Part shown: positions 8,784 through 24,446 of the stretch, piece by piece | Numbering within the stretch: position 1 is the first letter of the stretch | Layout of the letters: the number at the start of each line of letters is the position of its first letter | From: Desulfomonile tiedjei DSM 6799 | Lineage (GTDB): Bacteria; Desulfobacterota; Desulfomonilia; Desulfomonilales; Desulfomonilaceae | DNA: 64,000 bases | NCBI RefSeq assembly: GCF_000266945.1 | Contig: NC_018025.1 | Coordinates: 558,001 to 622,000 of the forward strand | Direction: 5' to 3' | Translations under genes and position numbers: made by a program | The notes under the pieces: model-generated | Seen by the model: only the letters and a program-made list of their open reading frames with translations | The model's database searches: none | What the model was told of the DNA's origin: nothing

Positions 8784-9656
8784 GTGAAATACATCGGTGC
8801 TGTTTATCGACCCCCAAGTGAAGCGCAAAGCCTTATTATTCAGGCTACCCTCGGATGTAATCATAATCAATGTACATTCTGCGGAAGCTATAGAGATAAA
8901 CGATTTACCATCAGAAGTCTTCAGGAAATCAAAGAGGATTTGGCAGATGCCCGTCATATGGGCCCGGTGGACAGAGTATTTTTGGCGGATGGAGATGCTC
9001 TGTGTATTCCACAGAAACGTCTGCTGGAGATAATCGAAGCGGTAAATGAAACGTTTCCGACATTGGAACGGATCGGAATTTATGCCAATGCGAAAAACAT
9101 ATTGCGCAAGTCACTCGACGATCTTCGGGAACTTCGCAAGCGAAAGCTCGGTATCATATATCTCGGCGTTGAAACAGGAGATGCTCCGCTCCTGGAGAAA
9201 ATCTGCAAAGGCGCAACATACGACGATCTCGTGGTTTCGGCACGGAGAGTCAAAGACGCAGGAATAACGCTTTCCGTTACCGTGTTGCTCGGAATCGGCG
9301 GGATTGAGGGCAGCCGCCAACATGCTCGAGAAACCGCTCGAATCCTGACCGATATGGACCCCGATTATGTTGGGGCTCTCAGCGTGATCGTGGTTCCCGG
9401 GACACCTCTTCATCAGGAGTATGTGGAAGGCAGATTTCACATACCCGATCCTTTCGATCTCATTGAAGAATTGAGAACCATGATTTCGGAATCCTCCTTT
9501 ACGCATTGTGTCTTCAGGTCTAACCACGCATCCAACTATCTACCCGTAAAGGCGACTCTTCCGAAAGACAAAGAACAGATATTACGCGCTATAGACCGGG
9601 TGCTGCAGACCCGAGACAAAAATATGTTGAGGCCGGAATTTCTCAGAGCACTGTAA
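8784..9656 (+). CDS. Radical SAM protein
   Basis: 290 residues. The cluster motif is CNHNQCTFC at about residues 29-37, a C-x4-C-x2-C spacing rather than the textbook C-x3-C-x2-C. This variant is known from an uncharacterised radical SAM group resembling Elp3/HemN-type enzymes. Further TIM-barrel markers are FLADGDAL, GIYANAKNI, GIYLGVETG (the GGE-equivalent and SAM-ribose region) and VTVLLGIGG. It has no C-terminal extra-cluster cysteines, so it is a minimal radical SAM core. Start is GTG 8784 with GAGGAA about six bases upstream. The substrate cannot be assigned. It is 41 bases downstream of the lipoprotein pair and upstream of the activase, with no clear functional link. Confidence 0.85.
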   Translation: MKYIGAVYRPPSEAQSLIIQATLGCNHNQCTFCGSYRDKRFTIRSLQEIKEDLADARHMGPVDRVFLADGDALCIPQKRLLEIIEAVNETFPTLERIGIYANAKNILRKSLDDLRELRKRKLGIIYLGVETGDAPLLEKICKGATYDDLVVSARRVKDAGITLSVTVLLGIGGIEGSRQHARETARILTDMDPDYVGALSVIVVPGTPLHQEYVEGRFHIPDPFDLIEELRTMISESSFTHCVFRSNHASNYLPVKATLPKDKEQILRAIDRVLQTRDKNMLRPEFLRAL

Positions 9657-9775
9657 CGAAATTAATGCACTGACAATACGACTGAATGAAACAGTCGTTA
9701 TAGAGAAAGCAATAAAAGCATGAGACACGCTGACATAGGTCAAATGTCTTGTACGTGATGTACGGGGGAATTGAC

Positions 9776-12700
9776 GTGAATAATTTTCTTGGAATTGACT
9801 GTGGTTCGGTCAGCCTTAATCTCGTTCTCCTTCGGGACAATTACGAGCCGGAATGTGTGTACTTGCGAACTCGCGGCCGCCCTCTCCAGGCATTCACGAG
9901 CGGTCTTAAGGAGCTCATGACCCGGTGCGATAACGATCCCGGAGCGGTTTGCGCGATTGTCACCGGCAGCGGCAGAGAACTCCTCTCCCAGGCGCTTGGA
10001 ATCCCTGCAGTAAACGAAATCACGGCTCATGCCACAGGCACTCATCGGATCGATCCCAGGGTGAGAACAATTGTGGAAATCGGGGGACAAGACGCCAAGT
10101 TCATGCGGATAGAGCCAATATCCGGAAGAATTACTCCCCGCATGCTCGTTTTCAGAATGAATGAAATCTGCGCTGCAGGTACGGGCGCATTTCTGGACGA
10201 ACAGGCACAAAGATTGGGGATCGAAATCGAATCTTTCGGCAGCATCGGGCTTAAGAGCACCCATCCCGCCCATATAGCCGGCAGATGTGCAGTCTTTGCG
10301 AAAACCGATATGATTCATCATGCTCAGGAAGGTACTCCTCTTCCGGACATTCTCATGGGCCTGGCCTATGCGTTGGCACGAAATTACATGGCCAGCCTGA
10401 TAAAAGGGGAGCATCTGGAACCGCCGGTGTCGTTGCAGGGCGGCGTCATGAGCAATGAAGCGGTTGTCCGAGCTCTTCGCGAATCGTTGGGTTTGCAGCC
10501 GGAGGAGATCATAGTGCCTCCCATGCACACGGTTTTGGGAGCGCTCGGTTGTGCCGTACTTGCAGCCCGCGATCACGGGAGTCTGTCCACCTCGCTTTCG
10601 GGACTGTGCAAACGAGCCGACGCATATATCGTCAATTCATCTGTGCGGCGTTTGCCGCAATTGGGAAGAAGCAAACCCTTCAAAGCGGAATACGCCGATT
10701 GTTCAGCGTCGGATATTCCGGAATTGCCCCTCATCTTGGGACTGGACATCGGGTCCGTGTCTGTCAAAGGCGTTGTCATCGACGCTCAAGGTCGCATCCT
10801 GAAACAGGATTATCGTTTATCGCATTCAGAATCAGTGCAGGCGGTTAGGGAAGTAGTGCAGGTTCTCACGGAAGAGGCCCCGTACCCGACCTATATTGCA
10901 GTGACCGGAAGCGGCAGAGAGCTTGTAGGGAAACTCCTGGACGCCGATCTGATCGTGAATGAAATTTCCGCCCAAGCCGCTGCTGCTCTGTTTTTCGATC
11001 CGAATGCCGATGCTGTGGTGGAAATAGGCGGCCAGGACTCCAAATGGATATCCCTTGCCGATGGCCATATTCAAGATTTCGAGATGAATCGGGTTTGCGC
11101 CGCGGGAACGGGAAGCTTCCTCATGGCCCAGGCGGAGCGGCTTGGTTTGACCATGGGGGATCCTTTTTCCGATGCGGCATTCAAGTCTGAAAATCCGGCA
11201 GATCTGGGAAACCGTTGCACAGTGTTCATGGAATCCGATCTCATTCATCATCAGAACACAGGTGCATCTATCGACGATCTCGCTGCAGGCGTTTGTGTCA
11301 GCATTGTACGGAACTATCTGGAGAGAGTGGCCGGCCACAAGACCCTGGGAAAACGAATCCTGTTCTTTGGCGGTGTTGCTGCGACGTCCGCGGTGAAGGC
11401 TGCTTTTGAACAATCGACAGGTAGAGAATTTCAAGTCCCTCCATTTCACAGAGTGTCGGGGGCGTACGGCTCCGCTTTGAAGCTGCTGGAACAGGTCAAG
11501 CAACAAGCACTCGTCCCGAATCGCGATCGAGTTTTCAAGTGGGACGACTCTGAAATCAGCGCTTCGTCGTTTTCCTGTAATAGATGCTCCAACACCTGCC
11601 GTATCGGAAAATACCTTTTTCGCAATAAGGTGGTTTTTCATGGAGGCATTTGTGAGCGATGGGAATCCGCTGGATTAGATTCCCGTAGACAATCGGCTGA
11701 CGATTTCTTCACTTTTCGCGTACAAATGCTCGAGAATCTCTGCGCAACCGACGACTCCAATGCTGCTAATGACAATACTTGGTTCATGCTGAGGCATCCG
11801 CAGTTCTATGAATGGTTTCCTTTCTGGCACAGCTTCTGCCGGGAATTGGGAATCACCCTGATTCCCGCGCCGAGAATCGATAGGGTCCAGTTTGAAGCAG
11901 GTGCAAAGAAGCTTTCCGTAGAAACGTGCATGCCCATAAAAGTCATGGCAGGCCAGCTCAAGAATCTGACTGAATCGGGTGCTCGAACGATTTTTCATCC
12001 AGCGGTTCTCGTGGAGCGATTTCAAGAAGAAGAACTACGGCCGGTTGATTTTTGCCCGTATATTCAAGCTTCCTCCCAGTTTTTCAAAGGAAGCTTCGAC
12101 GTGGATTGGAAAGAGCTTTTTATCCACGGGCGAATAGATCCTGACTCGTTTTTCCATGAGCATACGAAATTCGCCAAGGAATTGGGGTTTTCCGGACGAA
12201 AGGCACGAACGGCATTTGAATCGGCAATGGATGTTCAGAGATCTTTTTCCGATAGCTTATTTGATGGAGGCAAGAGATTCCTGGAATCTCTCGGGCCAGA
12301 TGAAAAAGCCATCGTCCTCTTGGGAAAACCGTACCATGTTTCAGACCCCTTCCTGAACATGAATATCGGGAACATTTTCCATCGTTTGAATATCAGGGCA
12401 TTGCCGGGCGATCTCTTTCCGCTCGGTCCTGAATTCGGAGAGAGAAGCGTTTCCTGGAAGCATCATTGGCAAACGGTCCGGGTGGCACAGGCAATCGCAA
12501 CGGACCCGAGGCTTTTTCCGGTATTGCTGACTTTTTTCGGGTGCGGACCGGATGCATTCACGTATCGTCATATTCATCAGGCATTGAAGGGAAAACCGCT
12601 GTTAATGCTTGAAATGGACGAACATACGTCCAAGGCGGGAATCATAACTCGGGTTGAAGCATTTCTCGATCGCATTCGGAATGTAAGCCGCAAGACCGCA

Positions 12701-13990
12701 AAGGACCAAGACGCGACAGCAGTAAAACGAAGACCGCCTGACCCGGGAATCGAATGCCTGTCCGGACGGCTGGATGAAAAGAGAACTTCGCCGATAAAAA
12801 AAGTGTACGTGCCGTACATGAGCGACCATTCCTTCGCATTTTCTGCTGCAGCTCAATCCATCGGCATAGAGGCCGAAGTGCTTCCTCCTCCTGATGAAGA
12901 TTCCGAACAGCTCGGAAGGCCCCATACTATGGGAGGTGAATGTCATCCGTTCGTCCTGATTCTCGGAGATTACTTGAAGATGGCCGCTCGATGCCCATCG
13001 CACGAAGCCAGAAAATCGATGTTCTACATTATCGGCCCTGATGCATGCAGGGTGGGCCAATATCCGGTATATATCGGTAAGATCGGACGGCAGCTCGGTT
13101 TTGAGATAGAAGTGATCGAAAATGTCGGTCAGGTGCTCACGCGATTAGGGCTCAGTAGATGGGCTGAACAACGAATCCTCCTAAGACTCTGGGAAGGTCT
13201 GAATGCATACGATGTTCTGTTACAGGCATTCCTGGCTATTCGGCCTTTTGCACAAGATCACCAAGCGTTGAACGCGAATTATTTCGCTGCAAGAGACATC
13301 CTTTTCCGTGCCCTATGTGACGGACACGTTCGTCAGGGAGTGGAAGACGCTTTCAATACGCTTTATCAGTCAGCAGTAAGAGAATCGGAATCGAAACCGG
13401 TAATCGCCGTTACGGGTGATTACTATACAAGAATTGTCTCGTATGCGAATAATGGAGTGTACAAAGAGATAGAATCTTTGGGCGGAATTCTCTGGTCTCC
13501 GCCGATGTTTTCCGATTCGTTGAAGCTGGGATATTTGAGAAATTTGGTTTGGAGCCTACTAAGCGGCAGATCGAAATCGGCGGCAGGGAACGGTCTTTTA
13601 TTTGCGCTCCTGAGTCTGCTCGAGTTCCGGATCAAGAGCCCGGACATCGTAAAACGATCCTTATCAGTGCCCTCAGATCTTGCGGGACTCGACCTCTGGC
13701 GCAAAGTGTCGCCCCATGCCAGCACAAAACTCCCCACCGGAATAATTGCGCCTCTTGGAACCGCCCTGCAGCAAGTGGATTCCGGTGCTCATGGCATTCT
13801 CAATCTTATGGCTCTGAATTGTGCTTACGGGACGGTTATTACCACTGCGCTGCTCCGAACGCTCAGAAACCATGTCAATACGCCAATGCTTACTCTCGTC
13901 TATGACGGTCTGAAAAAGACAAATGAGAAAACCAGACTGGAAGCTTTTATGGACCAGGTATGGCAACATTTTAGAGCAAAAACAGGGTAG
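9776..13990 (+). CDS. Tandem acyl-CoA dehydratase/benzoyl-CoA reductase-type activase (BadF/BadG/BcrA/BcrD family, fused)
   Basis: 1404 residues. Two ASKHA ATPase modules lie in tandem (about residues 1-270 and 315-600), each with DCGSVS/DIGSVS phosphate loops, VTGSGREL, EIGGQD and CAAGTG. Each also has a cysteine pair spaced 40 residues (C132/C171 and C441/C481 from the GTG), matching the inter-subunit [4Fe-4S] ligands of HgdC activases. A Cys-rich linker (CNRCSNTCRIGKYLF) and a long C-terminal region of the CoA-activase/DUF2229 and HgdB-like type follow. By family, ATP hydrolysis drives one-electron reduction of a partner dehydratase. I chose GTG 9776 (GGGGGA seven bases upstream) over ATG 9749. 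No dehydratase subunit is adjacent, so the partner is unknown. Confidence 0.88.
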   Translation: MNNFLGIDCGSVSLNLVLLRDNYEPECVYLRTRGRPLQAFTSGLKELMTRCDNDPGAVCAIVTGSGRELLSQALGIPAVNEITAHATGTHRIDPRVRTIVEIGGQDAKFMRIEPISGRITPRMLVFRMNEICAAGTGAFLDEQAQRLGIEIESFGSIGLKSTHPAHIAGRCAVFAKTDMIHHAQEGTPLPDILMGLAYALARNYMASLIKGEHLEPPVSLQGGVMSNEAVVRALRESLGLQPEEIIVPPMHTVLGALGCAVLAARDHGSLSTSLSGLCKRADAYIVNSSVRRLPQLGRSKPFKAEYADCSASDIPELPLILGLDIGSVSVKGVVIDAQGRILKQDYRLSHSESVQAVREVVQVLTEEAPYPTYIAVTGSGRELVGKLLDADLIVNEISAQAAAALFFDPNADAVVEIGGQDSKWISLADGHIQDFEMNRVCAAGTGSFLMAQAERLGLTMGDPFSDAAFKSENPADLGNRCTVFMESDLIHHQNTGASIDDLAAGVCVSIVRNYLERVAGHKTLGKRILFFGGVAATSAVKAAFEQSTGREFQVPPFHRVSGAYGSALKLLEQVKQQALVPNRDRVFKWDDSEISASSFSCNRCSNTCRIGKYLFRNKVVFHGGICERWESAGLDSRRQSADDFFTFRVQMLENLCATDDSNAANDNTWFMLRHPQFYEWFPFWHSFCRELGITLIPAPRIDRVQFEAGAKKLSVETCMPIKVMAGQLKNLTESGARTIFHPAVLVERFQEEELRPVDFCPYIQASSQFFKGSFDVDWKELFIHGRIDPDSFFHEHTKFAKELGFSGRKARTAFESAMDVQRSFSDSLFDGGKRFLESLGPDEKAIVLLGKPYHVSDPFLNMNIGNIFHRLNIRALPGDLFPLGPEFGERSVSWKHHWQTVRVAQAIATDPRLFPVLLTFFGCGPDAFTYRHIHQALKGKPLLMLEMDEHTSKAGIITRVEAFLDRIRNVSRKTAKDQDATAVKRRPPDPGIECLSGRLDEKRTSPIKKVYVPYMSDHSFAFSAAAQSIGIEAEVLPPPDEDSEQLGRPHTMGGECHPFVLILGDYLKMAARCPSHEARKSMFYIIGPDACRVGQYPVYIGKIGRQLGFEIEVIENVGQVLTRLGLSRWAEQRILLRLWEGLNAYDVLLQAFLAIRPFAQDHQALNANYFAARDILFRALCDGHVRQGVEDAFNTLYQSAVRESESKPVIAVTGDYYTRIVSYANNGVYKEIESLGGILWSPPMFSDSLKLGYLRNLVWSLLSGRSKSAAGNGLLFALLSLLEFRIKSPDIVKRSLSVPSDLAGLDLWRKVSPHASTKLPTGIIAPLGTALQQVDSGAHGILNLMALNCAYGTVITTALLRTLRNHVNTPMLTLVYDGLKKTNEKTRLEAFMDQVWQHFRAKTG

Positions 13991-14696: not shown

Positions 14697-14945
14697 ATGC
14701 GAGTGATTACCGTCTGCGTGGGGAGCGCTTGCCATCTGAAAGGTTCCCACGAGATAATCGATTATTTCAAGAAAGCAATCAAGGATGCTCGTCTTGATAG
14801 CGAAGTGGAACTCAAGGGCACTTTCTGCATGGACAAATGCACCGAGGGTGTGAACATTCTGATAGACGAGGATCCGTTTCACGCGAGTTCAGTTGATGAC
14901 GCGCATCAAATATTTCAGACGGAAATACTCCAAAAGCGCAAATAA
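14697..14945 (+). CDS. [2Fe-2S] thioredoxin-fold ferredoxin (NuoE/HydC-like)
   Basis: 82 residues. It starts MRVITVCVGSACHLKG, with CVGSAC (C-x4-C) and a later FCMDKC (C-x3-C), the four-cysteine set of thioredoxin-like [2Fe-2S] proteins such as the NuoE C-terminal domain and the small subunits of [FeFe]-hydrogenases. ATG 14697 has AGGAG eight bases upstream; the frame also opens ten codons earlier but without a better site. The next gene starts 12 bases after the stop, giving a three-gene operon with a sensor and a SpoIIE phosphatase. It probably acts as an electron relay or redox ligand for the sensor; that is inferred from context only. Confidence 0.88.
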   Translation: MRVITVCVGSACHLKGSHEIIDYFKKAIKDARLDSEVELKGTFCMDKCTEGVNILIDEDPFHASSVDDAHQIFQTEILQKRK

Positions 14946-14957
14946 GAAGGTGACCTC

Positions 14958-17246
14958 ATGGATCCCGTTACCTCAAAACGCGTACCCTGGAAGAGCTGGA
15001 ACGATTTTACCGGATGGGCCCAAGATTTTTCTCTGAAGAAGAAAGTCCTGGGAGGATTCCTCGGAGTGGTGATCCTGGTAGGGCTGGTCACCAGTCTCAT
15101 CGGAACGAGACTTGCCAGAGAAACCATTCTGGAACGTGCCAGAATAAGGCTTTTCAGCGATTTGGCAACCGCAGGTTTCATCTTGAGGAGTTCACAGGAA
15201 ACCCTGGAGCTCAAGATTCGCCTCGTCACGGGATCGGACAAACTACGGGACCTGATCGAAAAGAAAGATCTGAAGGGGCTTCGAGAACGGCTCTCCATAA
15301 TTGCAGTGGAAAACGATTTGGATTTTCTTTCGGTGATCGACGCGAACGGAAAGCTGCTCGCCAGAGCTTTTGTAGAGGAGGGAACGCCTGCAAAGATTGC
15401 CGATGATGCACTCTTGACTGCGGCAATGGGGGGAAAAGAAGCGTCAGGTCTCATGCTTGTTTCCACCCAGAGACTCGCTCTCGAGAATCCAACCCTTCTA
15501 CAAAAACTCGATTCCAAAAACGGAATGATCATGGAGGCGGCGCATCCTCTGGTCATCGATTCCAAGACGAACGCCGTGTTGTACGGAGGGACACTACTCA
15601 ATAATAACAATCTCATTGTAGATCGTATTTCTCATAGACTGTTCAGAGGTGAAGTCTACAACAGAAGAGAATTAGGCTATGTAGCAATCTATCAGCACGA
15701 TCGTGCAATCAGCTCCACGCTTAAGACCAGAGAAGGGCTTCCGGTGATCGGGTTCATCGCCGATCCCCGGATTCGGGAAGAAGTATTACAAAAAGGACAG
15801 TCTGAGATTACCTGGGAATCTCAGATGGGAGCCAAGTATCTTTCTGCAACGGAACCTGTAAAGGATTGGGAAAACAAGATAATCGGTGCCATTCAGGTGG
15901 CTACTCTGGAACAACCCATAACTCTGGTTATAGATCAGCTTGTTGCGACGTTTCTCATTGTGGGGTTTTTGGGCGTTCTATTGATGGCTGCAATTTCCTA
16001 TTATCTCGTTCAATGGATCAATAGACCTCTCGAACAAATGCTTTATGCTGCACGAGGCGCTGCGGAAGGGGATTTAAGCCGCGAAGTGCCGGTCGTGGCA
16101 CGGGATGAAATCGGAGAATTAGCTGCAACGTTTAATCTCATGATCCGAAATCTCGCGGAATCAAGGAACAAATTGGAAGACTGGGGCAAGCAGCTTGCTT
16201 CCAAAGTGGCCGAGCAAACGGGAGAACTCAATCAGGCAAGGGAACAGGTTGCACGCGTCAAGAAGCTTGCCTCACTGGAAAAAATGGCTGACGGCATGGC
16301 GCATATAATGCAACACATTTCGGATCCCCTCCTGATTTTTCCCAGCTCCGAGGACGAATCAGGTGCAACCAGCCGTATTCTGGTGCTGGACACCGATGAA
16401 AAGGTCTTGGAAATATGTCAACGAATCCTGGAGAGTGAAGGATTCGACGTGAAGACCACAAGATCGGTGAATGAGGCATTGAATGCCCTGGAACAACAGT
16501 TCTTCGACATTGTGGTCGCGGACATTGACATGCCTGAAATGGGAGGCCAGGAACTCCTCAAGGAAATCAAATACCGGCAGCCGGAAGTGCTCGTCATCAT
16601 GACCGCTTCGTTCAAAGCCACTGAAGAAGCCGTCGAGACCGTAAAACTCGGAGCCTTCGACTACATACCTAAACCATTCGGTCCGCATCAAATACTCTTG
16701 ATGATCTATACCGCTCTGCAAACCAGGGAGATGCTCAAAAAAACTCGTAAACAGCATGCGGAACGAAGAGCCGAGACCATATTCCAGCGATTGCCCGTAG
16801 CAATAGCACTGGCGGATGAAGCTCACCGTGTTGTGTATCACAACAATGCTTTCATTGAACTTGCTGCTCCTGACGGACACGAACCGATTCAGGGAAAGAC
16901 TTTTCGGCAGCTCTTCGGGGTGGATCCTCTTGATAAGGATGAAGAAGATTCCAGCTCAAGATGGCTGCAATTGGAGAAAGTGGGGAGGACGGCGAAGTTG
17001 TACAATTTCGAGTTGCCCGAAGAGGATCTCCGGGTATTGATGCTTCTCGACATCACGGAAACTGTCATGAAAGACCAGCAGGCAGACGTCTTCAAAGCCG
17101 AAACTATTTCCAAAGCACAACAGGTGATACATCAACAGATGCGGGTTGCCCAGGAAATCGCCGGGCTCCTCGGTGAAACCACTGCTGAAACCAAAGCTGC
17201 ACTCTTCGAATTGATCAAGCTCGCCGGAGAGGGAGAGTCGAGATGA
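14958..17246 (+). CDS. Membrane sensor with HAMP, receiver and PAS domains, no kinase domain
   Basis: 762 residues. TM1 is at residues 31-49 and an extracytoplasmic sensing region (dCACHE-like) covers ~50-320. TM2 is at ~325-347, followed by HAMP (INRPLEQML...DEIGEL) and a coiled coil. A receiver domain starts near 473 with phosphoacceptor D522 in VVADIDMP, T of MTAS and K of YIPKPFG. A PAS-like domain (~595-710) ends in a conserved tail, QQVIHQQMRVAQEIAGLLGE. No HisKA/HATPase domain is present, so it cannot be a complete histidine kinase. PAS proteins with this tail occur, from memory, beside SpoIIE-type phosphatases and [FeFe]-hydrogenase genes in anaerobes. It overlaps the SpoIIE gene by 4 bases (ATGA), indicating translational coupling. 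Confidence 0.85.
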   Translation: MDPVTSKRVPWKSWNDFTGWAQDFSLKKKVLGGFLGVVILVGLVTSLIGTRLARETILERARIRLFSDLATAGFILRSSQETLELKIRLVTGSDKLRDLIEKKDLKGLRERLSIIAVENDLDFLSVIDANGKLLARAFVEEGTPAKIADDALLTAAMGGKEASGLMLVSTQRLALENPTLLQKLDSKNGMIMEAAHPLVIDSKTNAVLYGGTLLNNNNLIVDRISHRLFRGEVYNRRELGYVAIYQHDRAISSTLKTREGLPVIGFIADPRIREEVLQKGQSEITWESQMGAKYLSATEPVKDWENKIIGAIQVATLEQPITLVIDQLVATFLIVGFLGVLLMAAISYYLVQWINRPLEQMLYAARGAAEGDLSREVPVVARDEIGELAATFNLMIRNLAESRNKLEDWGKQLASKVAEQTGELNQAREQVARVKKLASLEKMADGMAHIMQHISDPLLIFPSSEDESGATSRILVLDTDEKVLEICQRILESEGFDVKTTRSVNEALNALEQQFFDIVVADIDMPEMGGQELLKEIKYRQPEVLVIMTASFKATEEAVETVKLGAFDYIPKPFGPHQILLMIYTALQTREMLKKTRKQHAERRAETIFQRLPVAIALADEAHRVVYHNNAFIELAAPDGHEPIQGKTFRQLFGVDPLDKDEEDSSSRWLQLEKVGRTAKLYNFELPEEDLRVLMLLDITETVMKDQQADVFKAETISKAQQVIHQQMRVAQEIAGLLGETTAETKAALFELIKLAGEGESR

Positions 17247-18400
17247 ACGAAGCTCTCTTCATTGAATCCGGGGGTGCCCACGTCTGCAAACACGGCGAAA
17301 TTCTCTGTGGCGATTCCCTCGGTGTGGCTCCCATCGATCACGGAAAGCTCATGGTCTTGTCTGACGGACTCGGAAGCGGTGTGAAGGCCAATATTTTGGC
17401 CACACTTACCACCAAGATAGCCATGCGGCTCATGGAAAGAGGTCTGCCTCTGGAAGAGGTTGTGGAAACGCTCACGGATACCCTTCCTGAATGTAAGGTG
17501 AGAAAAATCGCGTACAGTACGTTCACCCTGGTTAAGGTCATGGAAGACGGCAGCGTGTATCTCGCCGAATTCGATAACCCACCTACTTTTTTTCTCAAAC
17601 GCGGTTATGTGAGCGAACTTAAATACCGGGACCGTGTAATTGGGACACGAAAGATTCGTGAAGCCCGAGTCCGCGTTGAAGCAGGCGACTGGCTAGTAAC
17701 CGTGAGCGATGGCGAGATTCACGCAGGAATCGGGGGCTTGCTTAATCTTGGCTGGGATTGGGAAAAGATAGCCAAATTTCTCGAAACTCAGGTCTACGAT
17801 GAGGTGTCGGCTCAAAAAGTAGCCCAGATCCTGGTGGATCAGGCGAAACAACTGTACGAGGGACGTCCGGGCGACGATACGACCGTCGGGGTGCTCAAGA
17901 TTCGTCCGAAGCGTTTCGCCTCCTTCATGATCGGTCCGCCGGTAAAGCGAGAAGAAGACGAGACAGTGGTGAATCTGTTCCTTTCGTTGCCGGGCAGAAA
18001 GATCGTGAGTGGCGGAACGACGGCTGGTATTGTTGGCAAGTTGCTCGGCAAGGACGTGGTAGTCGACTTATCCACCATGACAAACAAAATCCCGCCCACA
18101 GGAAAACTCGAAGGAATAGAGCTGGTAACCGAAGGAGTGCATACGGTAAATCATGCTCTGGAAATACTGGAGAATATCACCGACATTGAGGAATTGGTCG
18201 GCAAGCGGGATGGAGCCAGCAAACTTGCCTGGGAATTCCTCTATGCCGATTCCATAAGCATATTTCTCGGTCAGGCCATCAACCCTGCACACCTGAATCC
18301 CAACTTGCCCCAGGAAATGGGATTCAAGAGCCGCAGTATTCAGGCAATTACCAATCTATTGCGCGAGAGGGGCAAGGAAGTAAAACTCGAGATCCATTGA
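17243..18400 (+). CDS. SpoIIE-family PP2C-type serine phosphatase
   Basis: 385 residues. The N-terminal ~220 residues are a PP2C/SpoIIE domain: SLGVAPIDHGKLMVLSDGLGSGVKA (metal-binding Asp in SDGLGSG), VSDGEIHAGIGG, and PGDDTTVGVLKIRP with the C-terminal Asp pair. The last ~150 residues form a conserved extension (GGTTAGIVGKLLGKDVVVDL) seen in the hydrogenase-associated SpoIIE group. In that group it is thought to dephosphorylate a partner regulator, but no STAS anti-sigma antagonist or anti-sigma kinase gene is in the window. ATGA overlap with the sensor gene argues that sensor and phosphatase act as one unit. Nothing follows in the operon; the next gene is convergent. Confidence 0.88.
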   Translation: MNEALFIESGGAHVCKHGEILCGDSLGVAPIDHGKLMVLSDGLGSGVKANILATLTTKIAMRLMERGLPLEEVVETLTDTLPECKVRKIAYSTFTLVKVMEDGSVYLAEFDNPPTFFLKRGYVSELKYRDRVIGTRKIREARVRVEAGDWLVTVSDGEIHAGIGGLLNLGWDWEKIAKFLETQVYDEVSAQKVAQILVDQAKQLYEGRPGDDTTVGVLKIRPKRFASFMIGPPVKREEDETVVNLFLSLPGRKIVSGGTTAGIVGKLLGKDVVVDLSTMTNKIPPTGKLEGIELVTEGVHTVNHALEILENITDIEELVGKRDGASKLAWEFLYADSISIFLGQAINPAHLNPNLPQEMGFKSRSIQAITNLLRERGKEVKLEIH

Positions 18401-18451: not shown

Positions 18452-18871
18452 TTACAAATTGTCCAGTTTCGGCTTCAAATATCGGCTATATTCCTGGTCC
18501 ATTCCTCGAATGTGTCCGCGAGTCCAATCACCTAACTTGTTCAACACGGAAATAATCAGCGAAGAGTTAACTTCCTGCGTTTTGTACGTCTGAATAAATG
18601 TTTGGACTTCATTCACCAGATCTTCGTGGGCTTTTTTGTGAGCTGCGAGTGCTGGATATTTATAGGTAGCCATCAATGCTTCTTCGTCTCCAAAATGTCT
18701 AATCGTATAATTTGCCAGAAAATCCAAAAGTTCCCCGACCGCTTCTTTGCCTTTGCCGTCCCAGACTGCATCTCCTAAGACATTAAAACGTCGAAACAAC
18801 TCTCTATGCTGTTCATCTATCATAGCGATGTTGCAGTTAAGATCGTCTGACCACGGTATCCAATCCGCCAT
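18452..18871 (-). CDS. Bacteriohemerythrin
   Basis: 139 residues, a single hemerythrin four-helix domain binding a non-heme diiron centre and O2. All ligands are visible: H22, H59 and E63 (RHFGDEE), H78 and H82 (HKKAHE), H120 and D125 (GHIRGMD). The N-terminal IPWSDDLNCNIAMIDEQH is characteristic. No transmembrane or signalling domain is fused, so it is a soluble cytoplasmic O2 scavenger, carrier or sensor. AAGGTGAG precedes the ATG. In anaerobes such proteins protect O2-sensitive iron-sulfur enzymes. It is convergent with the redox-sensing operon, so any functional tie is speculative. Confidence 0.93.
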   Translation of the reverse strand: MADWIPWSDDLNCNIAMIDEQHRELFRRFNVLGDAVWDGKGKEAVGELLDFLANYTIRHFGDEEALMATYKYPALAAHKKAHEDLVNEVQTFIQTYKTQEVNSSLIISVLNKLGDWTRGHIRGMDQEYSRYLKPKLDNL

Positions 18872-21760: not shown

Positions 21761-22945
21761 ATGTATTCTACTCCGAAAGAAGAAATAGAATCTCGCATTT
21801 CAGCGCTCCAGAGCCTAATGAGGCAAAACGGCTTCGAGGGAGCCATCATTCTCCAGCGCGCGGATTTGTTCTATTACTCCGGAACAGGCCAGGATGCGCA
21901 TTTGTTTGTTCCGGTAGAAGGCGATCCTCTCCTCCTCGTGAGAAAAAGTTTTGAAAGAGCAGTGGCGGATTCGCCCCTTCAGCACATTTCGGAAGTGAAG
22001 AGTTTCTCGCAGTTGAAGCAGTCTATCAACGGAACCGGTCACGGAATCAAGAAATTAGGAATGGAACTGGACGTGCTTCCGGTGAACAATTTCCGAATCT
22101 ACGAAGACCTTTTCCCCGGAACCGAGATCGCAGACGTGTCGCCGCTCGTCAAGATCAACAGAATGGTCAAATCTCCGTACGAGCTTGCAATTATGAAGCG
22201 GGCTGCGGAGTTGAACACCCGTATGTTTTCGTTCGTCCTGGAAGTTCTCAAGGAAGGCATGACCGAGATGGAGCTTTCTGCTCACCTGGAGGCATTCTAT
22301 AGACAAAACGGCCATCAGGGGTTCGTTCGAGTCAGAAGCTTTAATCAGGAAGTTTTCTACGGGCATGTCATGTCCGGCAGCAATTTGGCTGTGCCGAGCT
22401 GTTCCGTGGGACCGACCGGCGGACCGGGCACTAATGCTTCCATGCCTCAAGGCGCGGGACTAAAGCCGATCGGAAGACACGAGCCGGTATCTATCGATTA
22501 CGTCGGCAGTGTTGACGGTTACATAGTGGATCAAGCGAGAACCTTCTATGTGGGCGAGCCACCTGAAAAATTCGTTCGCGCTCACAACGTTGCGATCGCC
22601 ATTCAGGAAGCTGTCGTTAAAAGAGGCCTTCCGGGTACCGCTGCTGAGGAATTGTACGACATTTCATTGGAAATGGCGAAAGAAGCGGAACTCCTGGAAG
22701 GATTTCAGGGATATCCGCCTGTCCCCTTTCTCGGCCATGGAGTGGGCCTTGAACTGGATGAGTTTCCCGTCATCGGCAGGAAATCCCCACACATTCTTCA
22801 GGAAAATATGGTGGTGGCCATTGAACCGAAGTTTATTTTCCCCGGCGAAGGAATGGCAGGGATCGAAAATACTTTTGTAGTGACAGCCTCAGGTTTGAAG
22901 AGAATTACGCATTTTGACGATTCCATTCAAGTCGTGCCGTGTTGA
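21761..22945 (+). CDS. M24-family aminopeptidase-like protein (Xaa-Pro peptidase or creatinase type)
   Basis: 394 residues: N-terminal creatinase-like domain (~1-145), then a pita-bread catalytic domain. Metal ligands are visible: Asp in VSIDYVGSVDG and in IVDQARTF, His in FLGHGVGLELDE, Glu in VAIEPKFIFP and Glu in AGIENTFVV. The five-ligand set is intact, so hydrolase activity (Xaa-Pro dipeptides or N-terminal Xaa-Pro bonds) is plausible. It starts with the MYSTPKEEIESRISALQSLM helix; the Shine-Dalgarno is weak. It sits downstream of the aldolase and dehydrogenase genes, an unusual partner for a peptidase. In such contexts the fold may act on non-peptide C-N bonds, as creatinase does; this is inference. 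Confidence 0.87.
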   Translation: MYSTPKEEIESRISALQSLMRQNGFEGAIILQRADLFYYSGTGQDAHLFVPVEGDPLLLVRKSFERAVADSPLQHISEVKSFSQLKQSINGTGHGIKKLGMELDVLPVNNFRIYEDLFPGTEIADVSPLVKINRMVKSPYELAIMKRAAELNTRMFSFVLEVLKEGMTEMELSAHLEAFYRQNGHQGFVRVRSFNQEVFYGHVMSGSNLAVPSCSVGPTGGPGTNASMPQGAGLKPIGRHEPVSIDYVGSVDGYIVDQARTFYVGEPPEKFVRAHNVAIAIQEAVVKRGLPGTAAEELYDISLEMAKEAELLEGFQGYPPVPFLGHGVGLELDEFPVIGRKSPHILQENMVVAIEPKFIFPGEGMAGIENTFVVTASGLKRITHFDDSIQVVPC

Positions 22946-22967
22946 GGTCACAATGGGCCTTGTCCTC

Positions 22968-23161
22968 TTATAAGTCAGTGCCAAAAATTGTGTCATTTAT
23001 CCCTCGTGTGAATTACCAGGATATTGGTAGGGACCGGCGTCCCTGCCGGTCCATTCTATCGATATCATTGATCATGTTGAAGATGTGCCGGCACGGAGGC
23101 ACGGCACCCACCAATATTCCTAAATCTTCAATCGGTCACTAATTTTGGCAACTGGTTATAA
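22968..23161. repeat. Family A palindromic repeat (MITE-like), copy A2
   Basis: This 194-bp intact copy starts TTATAAGTCAGTGCCAAAAA and ends (other strand) TTATAACCAGTTGCCAAAAT, the clearest terminal inverted repeats of the family. Core hairpins are GGGACCGGCGTCCCTGCCGGTCC and GTGCCGGCACGGAGGCACGGCAC. It is exactly as long as copy A1. Confidence 0.82.
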
Positions 23162-23284: not shown

Positions 23285-24019
23285 ATGCGCGATTATACAT
23301 TATTGGCCCGGCAGATTCTTGAGGATCTTCGTGAGGAAGTGGATGAAGAGACTCTCAGGAATAAATACAATCTTGCTCCGGAAAGTTTATTAAATATTCT
23401 CCTAACCTTGGAAGAGCAAGGACTCATTTTTAAAATTGATGGACGTTTCATTGCGCCGGATATGCGAAGTATCTCTGCAATCGATATGGTTCGCGATATT
23501 CAAAACGGTATGGATGAAGCAAAGCTACAGGAAAAATATGGACTCAGTTTACAGGGTCTCGCGAGTTCCATAAGACTGCTGGTCGAAGGAAACCATTTGA
23601 CGCGTTCCGATCTGGCCGAGCGAGACCTATTGTTTCAGGAAGTCATGGACCCGGGCCTTGCGAGGGAGTCTCGCAGGTACTATCTGGATTTCGATCTTCC
23701 CATTTTCGATATGGGAACGCCCATGTTGAGGGGGAGGGTGAACGATCTTACGGAAAAAGGCCTGGGGACTATAGGGATTCCTTCGCGCCCTGATGAAATC
23801 AAGCACTTCATGATTAATCACGAGAAGTTCGTCTTGCTAAAACCCTTCGCTTTCCAGGCACGCTGCCGATGGTCTCGTCAGAACGCGGCTTCAGGTGATT
23901 TCATTGCGGGCTTTGAGATTTCGGAGATTTCGCCTGAGGATTTTGCCGAATTGCGCAAACTGTGCAAGATGGTCACTTTTTACGTGTCCCCCGAAACACC
24001 GGTGAAATTTGGTTCATAA
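23285..24019 (+). CDS. PilZ-domain protein with N-terminal winged-helix-like repeats
   Basis: 244 residues. The N-terminal ~130 residues contain two or three related helical units (ARQILEDLREEVDEETLRNKYNL; MVRDIQNGMDEAKLQEKYGLS) that look like small winged-helix or saposin-like repeats. The C-terminal ~100 residues resemble a PilZ domain (FQARCRWSRQN...SGDFIAGFEISEIS), a fold that can bind cyclic di-GMP. The canonical RxxxR is not clearly present, so nucleotide binding is uncertain. ATG 23285 has AGGAG six bases upstream; the frame extends 26 codons further without a better start. Deltaproteobacteria carry many such cytoplasmic PilZ proteins. Targets are unknown. Confidence 0.7.
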   Translation: MRDYTLLARQILEDLREEVDEETLRNKYNLAPESLLNILLTLEEQGLIFKIDGRFIAPDMRSISAIDMVRDIQNGMDEAKLQEKYGLSLQGLASSIRLLVEGNHLTRSDLAERDLLFQEVMDPGLARESRRYYLDFDLPIFDMGTPMLRGRVNDLTEKGLGTIGIPSRPDEIKHFMINHEKFVLLKPFAFQARCRWSRQNAASGDFIAGFEISEISPEDFAELRKLCKMVTFYVSPETPVKFGS

Positions 24020-24136
24020 AATTGTCGATGTTTGCACGTGATCCGTTGTCCAAGTACTCGAGAGATCGCTACGAGGACACAACACGCTGTCCACGGCAAC
24101 TGACATAATATCAATTTGCATTCAAAACTCCCCCAT

Positions 24137-24161
24137 TCCCCCTTTAATAAAGGGGGGTAAG
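24137..24161. terminator. Hairpin, possible terminator or repeat
   Basis: CCCCCTTTAATAAAGGGGGG forms a strong stem in the gap between the PilZ gene and the DUF2905 gene, but no uridine run follows immediately. The flanking CCCCCATTCCCCC suggests it is part of a dispersed repeat rather than a dedicated terminator. Confidence 0.35.
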
Positions 24162-24212
24162 AGGGGATTTTTCGTCTCACTTTGAAAGCAAATTGGCATA
24201 AGGTACTAGTAC

Positions 24213-24446
24213 ATGGATCCGGGTACAATCGGCAAATGGATAATCATTTCAGGCCTTGTTCTTGCCGCGGTGGGAGGAATCATCTGGATTGCGGGAAAGA
24301 TGGGTATTCCTTTCGGCAGCCTTCCAGGGGATATTTCAATTGACCGTCCAGGATTCTCGTTCAGGTTTCCTTTAGGAACGAGCATCCTGGTGAGTATTAT
24401 TCTCACCATACTGCTGAATGTGATCATTTGGATATTTCGGAAATGA
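24213..24446 (+). CDS. DUF2905 small membrane protein
   Basis: 77 residues with two transmembrane helices (about residues 8-28 and 55-74) joined by the conserved loop GKMGIPFGSLPGDISIDRPGFSFRFPLGTS, the signature of DUF2905. The GDI.I.R pattern is typical of the family, which is widespread in bacteria and has no known function. Its 3' end overlaps the 3' end of the convergent archaemetzincin gene by 23 bases. No good Shine-Dalgarno is seen. Confidence 0.85.
   Translation: MDPGTIGKWIIISGLVLAAVGGIIWIAGKMGIPFGSLPGDISIDRPGFSFRFPLGTSILVSIILTILLNVIIWIFRK

Follow-up and report, generated by a model that had tools for sequence, protein, structure and literature searches.

The window considered here (the whole stretch analysed, 64,000 nucleotides; C1:558001-622000, where C1 is contig NC_018025.1) comes from Desulfomonile tiedjei DSM 6799, whose genome was searched as 6,527,027 bases in two contigs, with a chromosome of 6,500,104 bases. 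It contains a three-gene operon, encoded entirely on the forward strand, with genes for an 82-residue thioredoxin-fold [2Fe-2S] protein (14697-14945), a 762-residue chimeric membrane sensor (14958-17246), and a SpoIIE-type phosphatase (17243-18400). The first gene begins with an ATG preceded by AAAGGAG, a 12-base spacer separates it from the sensor gene, and the latter shares a 4-base ATGA overlap with the phosphatase gene. Our reading of the open reading frames, together with Pfam searches, bears out the tight coupling of the three genes that an earlier note on this DNA, made from its letters alone, had described. The 4-base overlap is retained in 15/15 orthologous loci whose sequence spans the junction, and, since it recurs in this manner and the sensor is present in 17 of the 18 genomes of the family Desulfomonilaceae, the arrangement is not a product of chance. 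An Rfam scan of the window yielded nothing at gathering scores, and scans for promoters and terminators returned 4 and 4 sites versus shuffle means of 4.3 and 4.6. Below, the loci fetched for comparison are labeled with L and a number.

The small protein matches the 2Fe-2S_thioredx family (PF01257; 7.3e-8), and its nearest solved relatives are the thioredoxin-like parts of HydA, HydC, and NuoE. Cys7, Cys12, Cys44, and Cys48 are kept in 7/7 aligned homologues, including three from Bacillota, and are likely to be the ligands of the [2Fe-2S] cluster.

The sensor displays the architecture TM1-Cache-TM2-HAMP-DHp remnant-receiver-PAS-tail (TM, transmembrane segment), as delineated by Pfam, alignments, and a structural model. 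Two hydropathy maxima, over residues 26-53 and 319-354, bracket a periplasmic ligand-binding region with a double-PDC (dCache-like) fold (residues 60-320; 15135-15917), in which Pfam detects sCache_3_3 over residues 213-326 (1.8e-11). The model shows a long first helix and, with strands read by eye, two alpha/beta Cache-like cores between the transmembrane segments; its Foldseek matches include the double-Cache sensor domains of MkcA, DctB, and TlpQ. A HAMP domain follows (16005-16157; PF00672, 1e-12), after which come a remnant of DHp helix 1, KKLASLEKMADGMAHIMQHISDPL (16236-16328), a receiver domain (residues 474-583; 16377-16706), a PAS domain (residues 598-697; 16749-17048), and a distinctive output tail (residues 698-757; 17049-17228).

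The sensor had been characterized earlier as devoid of a kinase domain. This holds insofar as Pfam finds no kinase family in it, with both HisKA and HATPase_c unmatched, but it overlooks the DHp remnant. As the HisKA profile fails to match this stretch even at E<=10, it is the alignment to intact kinases that carries the DHp relationship. A profile of the input half (residues 20-470), with the five best candidates scored per genome, matched 116/297 Desulfobacterota genomes at E<=1e-15, many of them through HAMP and DHp alone. Among the matches listed, the highest-scoring non-family proteins have 671-718 residues and reach 302-334 bits, aligning up to position 434 of 456; for the alignments that begin at position 2-5, the scores are 311-333 bits. 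The foremost of these (L225) is an sCache_3_3-HAMP-HisKA-HATPase_c protein by Pfam, and five others (L226-L230) share its C-terminal kinase sequence. When the DHp region is aligned with 14 intact kinases from among L225-L240 (L236 and L240 being short and without an H-box), the similarity is seen to stop at the H-box: the kinases have AHEIN.P, within GVAHEIN(G or S)PL in L225-L230, versus GMAHIMQHISDPL in the window, with a 3-residue insertion, loss of the Glu after the His, and no ATP-binding domain downstream. His449 is kept in 13/14 and His453 in 14/14 aligned orthologues. By these alignments, much of the sensor derives from a histidine kinase. A search of its own genome for a donor of the input, using a 132-residue fragment, gave 20 places including itself, the others being 25-38% identical over parts; the closer relatives of the input, among the matches listed, come from other Desulfobacterota families.

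The C-terminal part of the sensor has a different ancestry. The window protein aligns with Bacillota hydrogenase proteins only in its last part, the PAS domain (PAS_8, 4.8e-5) and the tail, with 36% identity over residues 598-752 to the HydS protein of L031 (E 2e-17, small set) and 54% over residues 688-755 to that of L030. This makes the PAS domain a homologue of the HydS PAS domain and the tail one of the HydS type, and 26 columns of the tail are invariant among seven sequences from the family and Bacillota. In a profile of 123 tail rows (the window and 122 loci, one of them a repeat), the commonest letter of the stretch QMRVAQEIAGLLGETTAETK occurs in about 50 to >90% of the rows, depending on the column. 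We also considered whether the tail corresponds to the helix lying ahead of SpoIIE domains in fused phosphatases, here separated from the phosphatase chain, as the two look alike by eye (own-genome linker ELGVAASIQKSMLP). This idea was dropped: the 123-row profile reached the ELGVAASIQKSMLP protein only at E 7, and one better match came through the ends of PAS domains rather than the tail.

The phosphatase combines a SpoIIE/PP2C domain (residues 1-222; 17243-17908; PF07228, 1.1e-17) with a C-terminal domain (residues 223-385; 17909-18397). The PP2C model superimposes on 3pu9 over 213 residues with a root mean square deviation of 3.1 (Z 21.6) and on SpoIIE (5ucg) over 210 residues at 3.0 (Z 21.6). 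Asp24, Asp41, Asp156, Asp211, and Asp212 are kept in 18/18 rows and likely form the metal site, and the protein is expected to be an active enzyme. The C-terminal 165 residues match no Pfam family at E<=10, and their model is a mostly confident alpha/beta structure; full-length alignment shows this domain to be shared with the Bacillota homologues, and matches to it also lie beside HydS in Desulfobacterota. This unnamed domain, with the motifs GPP...D...GGTT..I... and INPAH.NP, is common to the hydrogenase-linked phosphatases aligned. When species genomes were searched with the phosphatase sequence, 20 loci were recovered: Desulfomonile-like genomes or bins account for 17 of them (L029 and L033 being parts of one bin), at 77-91% identity, and Bacillota for three, at about 38-47% over almost the full length.

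The three Bacillota loci (L030-L032) share the order small [2Fe-2S] protein, larger protein, phosphatase. In L030 and L031 a sensory [FeFe]-hydrogenase takes the place of the larger protein, with Fer4, Fe_hyd_lg_C, and FeS domains by Pfam; its PAS domain lies above the Pfam cut-off in L031 and below it in L030, and the L032 protein aligns likewise. A further [FeFe]-hydrogenase gene follows the module in L031 and L032, and NuoE/NuoF-type partners are found in L030. The row in L031 (L031:5495-12593) reads AdhE-type gene, thioredoxin-fold protein, HydS, phosphatase, [FeFe]-hydrogenase, with the gene for the bifunctional aldehyde/alcohol dehydrogenase (AdhE type) stopping 9 bases before the module.

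Such sets have been discussed in several publications. Group C hydrogenases are described as possible H2 sensors that have a PAS domain together with a putative Ser/Thr phosphatase subunit, with the signal proposed to pass via PAS to the downstream Ser/Thr phosphatase (PMC6776011). The PAS-bearing HydS of Thermotoga maritima is assumed to control another hydrogenase of its own operon (PMC10055695), and for the C-terminal cluster of groups C and D a sensing or signal-transfer part has been proposed but not tested (PMC13104023). In Thermoanaerobacterium saccharolyticum, deletion of hfsA or hfsB raised the ethanol yield ~1.8-fold with more adhE expression, and deletion of hfsC or hfsD left a wild-type ethanol yield with flux moved to lactate (PMC5707799); the placement of the AdhE-type gene in L031 fits this reported link to adhE. 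HfsC has been described as serine-phosphatase-like (PMC11837493). In Actinobacteria, nuoE-like, phoR, and spoIIE genes are named at hydrogenase loci (PMC7325909), a gene set which suggests that other sensors may occur there.

A survey of where else the tail occurs, which the earlier note had called for, was carried out with a tail profile in two phyla, Desulfobacterota and the phylum of L031 (Acidaminobacter sp. JC074). In the former 19/395 genomes match, five of them in the window's family; in the latter 93/299 match, at 109 places. The 14 + 109 non-family places were all fetched (124 loci) and scanned with local profiles, giving 125 rows, 123 of them over the tail cut-off; after removal of repeats (L195 = L095, and one L165 frame = L104), 121 distinct frames were left (13 + 108). 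Every one of these has an Fe_hyd domain, and L082 and L194, which fell below the tail cut-off and were checked separately, are both hydrogenase proteins, so that the total stands at 14/14 in Desulfobacterota and 109/109 in the other phylum (123/123). Five of the tail frames are short (246-454 residues), two lying at contig ends and three showing apparent frame breaks or late starts. A SpoIIE phosphatase lies directly downstream of 120/121 frames, the exception (L166) stopping at a contig end, and likewise downstream in L082 and L194. A small thioredoxin-fold gene (<140 residues, <=300 bases upstream) accompanies 66/92 frames in the longer loci, some of which are without full flank; among the remaining frames, a hydrogenase subunit containing a thioredoxin-fold domain takes that place in several, and some have neither.

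Inside Desulfomonilaceae the picture is inverted. The tail matches in 17/18 genomes and 11/11 genera, the missing genome being 82% complete, and in 17/17 frames the profiles for the receiver and for the Cache-HAMP input both give matches, against 0/17 for the hydrogenase profile (about the last 565 residues examined; 466 in L207). The earlier note had taken the central protein for a sensor, which stands, but it did not recognize it as a direct replacement of HydS/HfsB that keeps the PAS domain and tail. Fe_hyd_lg_C is found in only 1/18 family genomes, that of the window itself, at a distant site, and the 416-residue product of that gene has no PAS match. With the module in 17/18 genomes and Fe_hyd_lg_C in 1/18, the module is independent of an [FeFe]-hydrogenase in this family, in keeping with the earlier idea of a stand-alone unit. 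No description of such a replaced-sensor variant was encountered in the portions of the open-access literature searched.

In a tree of 133 phosphatases, the family's 16 rows form one clade (SH-aLRT 100), and the midpoint root has hydrogenase-linked rows to either side of it, with the family lying among such rows, which most simply implies one replacement in the family ancestor. Comparison of the window with L014, L015, and L017 gave nonsynonymous divergences (dN) of 0.11-0.24 for the sensor over the three pairs, at synonymous sites at or near saturation, and dN/dS is incomputable for most domains owing to this saturation. By part, the Cache region evolves fastest (0.24-0.45) and the tail slowest (0-0.04), which fits ligands that vary and an output contact that stays constant. 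The module is conserved and under selection, a stand-alone unit with a swapped input rather than a decayed duplicate. That a decayed remnant of a hydrogenase regulon is being lost here, as the absence of the hydrogenase domain and of any linked hydrogenase might suggest, is almost certainly wrong given its retention in 17/18 genomes and 11/11 genera, the low sensor dN against saturated synonymous sites, and the phosphatase Asp and cluster Cys residues kept in the aligned rows.

Taking these findings together, we consider it quite likely that the operon is a HydS/HfsB-type module in which the hydrogenase part was replaced, most simply once in the ancestor of Desulfomonilaceae, by a kinase input and a receiver. 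As read from sequence, the homology of the phosphatase, PAS domain, and tail to hydrogenase-linked sets, the derivation of the input from a kinase, the loss of the kinase's catalytic parts, and the conservation in 17/18 genomes are evident; the first of these substantiates the kinship with [FeFe]-hydrogenase loci to which the earlier note had pointed. The replacement input would consist of the periplasmic Cache region, transmembrane segments, HAMP domain, and DHp helix of a histidine kinase plus the receiver. We propose that a periplasmic ligand, or the redox state conveyed via the [2Fe-2S] protein, might alter the HAMP/DHp coiled coil; the change would then pass through the receiver and PAS domain to the tail, which could switch the PP2C phosphatase to dephosphorylate Ser/Thr residues of an unlinked protein. 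More generally, we find it reasonably probable that a kinase receptor half was grafted via the receiver onto the HydS PAS-tail, with the latter acting as a portable plug that links unrelated sensors to one PP2C family, and that an output born with hydrogenases was thereby kept in a lineage that has nearly no [FeFe]-hydrogenase.

Several considerations weigh against this proposal. The phosphatase tree was built quickly, is rooted at its midpoint, and contains long branches, and the tail survey spans two phyla. Contact between tail and phosphatase is suggested by their co-occurrence and conservation, and the PAS domain and tail are modeled poorly (pLDDT <50 for residues 600-742). The 82-residue protein is an HfsA equivalent by position, with a shared thioredoxin-fold family putative, and HfsA is stated to align poorly with known proteins (PMC11837493). 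For Ruminococcus albus, the proposed recipient of the signal is worded as a Ser/Thr protein kinase in one paper (PMC5707799) and as a phosphatase in another (PMC6776011). The hfs genetics, as reported, are in line with a sensor that controls adhE via the phosphatase, polar effects being a caveat: the hfsA deletion lowers downstream genes 2-6-fold (PMC5707799). Electron flow, earlier suggested as a process that the module could control, is supported only by analogy to these hfs mutants and to the AdhE-type gene beside one Bacillota set.

The alternative that survives best, which we nonetheless regard as doubtful, is a partner switch, in which the phosphatase would act on a STAS antagonist and so free an anti-sigma-like kinase. 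In the genome-wide count (E<=0.001), Fe_hyd_lg_C, STAS, and HATPase_c_2 have no match inside the 64-kb window, as the earlier note had observed for the adjacent genes, and the operon's own SpoIIE is the only SpoIIE match there. The recommended search of the genome for partners found the single Fe_hyd_lg_C elsewhere and an unlinked pair of STAS (122 residues) and HATPase_c_2 (140 residues) proteins at C1:1861.6-1862.4 kb, near which there is no genome SpoIIE match. The genome's other stand-alone STAS is served by an adjoining dCache-HAMP-SpoIIE phosphatase, the orphan pair lies beside a BcrAD-type activase gene and the operon of the window begins 706 bases downstream of one, and a PP2C phosphatase with metal-binding Asp residues is present. 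Hence, with low confidence, this pair is the best candidate for the phosphatase's target. Against it, no STAS or anti-sigma gene is linked to the operon, which leaves the partner switching earlier supposed unproven, and STAS and HATPase_c_2 are absent from 14 neighbor proteins of seven family loci and 6 of the three Bacillota loci, by a Pfam scan of part of the neighbors.

The surroundings of these genes are of interest in themselves. The orphan pair sits beside genes for a BcrAD activase and an HGD-D dehydratase (L253:8600-11505; C1:1861.6-1864.5 kb), and at L084:7841-10130 (C1:4548.8-4551.1 kb) the stand-alone STAS is followed by the one-chain dCache-HAMP-SpoIIE phosphatase. In the window, 9749-13990 (+) encodes a 1413-residue protein of the acyl-CoA dehydratase activase type, with two BcrAD_BadFG ATPase halves and DUF2229, and 8784-9656 (+) a radical-SAM protein (MKYIGAVYRPPSEA...) that is the module's most constant upstream neighbor in the family. 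Its homologue occurs in 12/13 orthologous loci with enough flank (absent from L016; L025, with a BcrAD-type activase gene directly upstream of the operon, was not judged); it is separated from the operon by a BcrAD-type activase, homologous to that at 9749-13990, in L018, L019, L026, L033, and L065 and lies immediately before it in seven other loci, a count that leaves out L066-L068 as repeats of L026, L023, and L022. A hemerythrin-like gene (18452-18871, minus strand) is convergent with the phosphatase gene, 51 bases past its end. Similar spurious translations (...DRRPCRSIL.IS...LKMCRHGG...) at window 22939-23142 and L253:4861-5085, two unrelated places, point to a putative dispersed intergenic repeat, and a second repeated spurious translation (FKVRRKIPS...) is seen at window 23980-24228 and L084:14107-14418.

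A further alternative, which we judge improbable, is a phosphorelay in which an unlinked histidine kinase phosphorylates D522 of the receiver and, jointly with periplasmic sensing, controls the phosphatase. The receiver does score strongly (Response_reg, PF00072, 2.3e-25), with D522 at the phosphorylation-site position in 12/14 aligned orthologues and D478 and K572 in 14/14, the pocket residues being assigned on what we take to be the CheY pattern. However, 0/14 are acidic at position 479, where the pocket should have its second acidic residue and where T, S, P, V, Q, or H is found instead; D522 is replaced by Glu in L016 and Ala in L018, both of which retain the tail and phosphatase; and no kinase gene is coupled to the operon. 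As the acidic residue is missing throughout and D522 is lost in two loci, phosphoryl input, which had been claimed for D522, is doubtful and unlikely to be general, and the most probable role of the receiver is that of a spacer, structural or independent of phosphorylation.

Returning to the proposed replacement of the hydrogenase part, an input swap that spared only the PAS domain, tail, and phosphatase pinpoints the output connector of sensory hydrogenases, whose signaling through PAS and then a Ser/Thr phosphatase is, in the literature consulted, proposed rather than shown. With a sensor free of oxygen-sensitive H-cluster chemistry, the sensor-to-phosphatase step becomes directly assayable. 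The module is also a clear natural example of what looks like rewiring, in which a kinase receptor that once served His phosphorylation would now serve Ser/Thr dephosphorylation.

Three known types of system invite comparison. The Cache-HAMP-HisKA-HATPase kinases of Desulfobacterota (L225-L230) are homologous to the sensor from TM1 through DHp helix 1; they keep AHEIN.P and HATPase_c, whereas the window sensor has a disrupted H-box and, in place of the ATP-binding domain, receiver-PAS-tail. The HAMP-PP2C phosphatases, which we take to be those named SiaA/RsbU (own-genome representative, L084), likewise place a Cache/HAMP membrane input over a SpoIIE-type PP2C domain, but unite sensor and phosphatase in one chain with a linked STAS; the window module divides them between two chains, carries a HydS tail and an additional C-terminal domain on the phosphatase, and has no linked STAS. 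Closest in architecture are hfsABC(D) of T. saccharolyticum and hydS of R. albus, with the same order of small protein, PAS-tailed sensor, and serine phosphatase; we link the window to them by architecture and the published accounts, the homology having been read from hydrogenase-linked sets instead. Of the traits of a HydS/HfsB module, the window has the downstream SpoIIE with its own C-terminal domain, the PAS domain with tail, and the small thioredoxin-fold protein, and its sensor, when scanned, lacks the Fe_hyd_lg_C and FeS domains. It differs from both in having, in place of an H-cluster hydrogenase and [4Fe-4S] domains and with no hydrogenase linked, a membrane receptor half.

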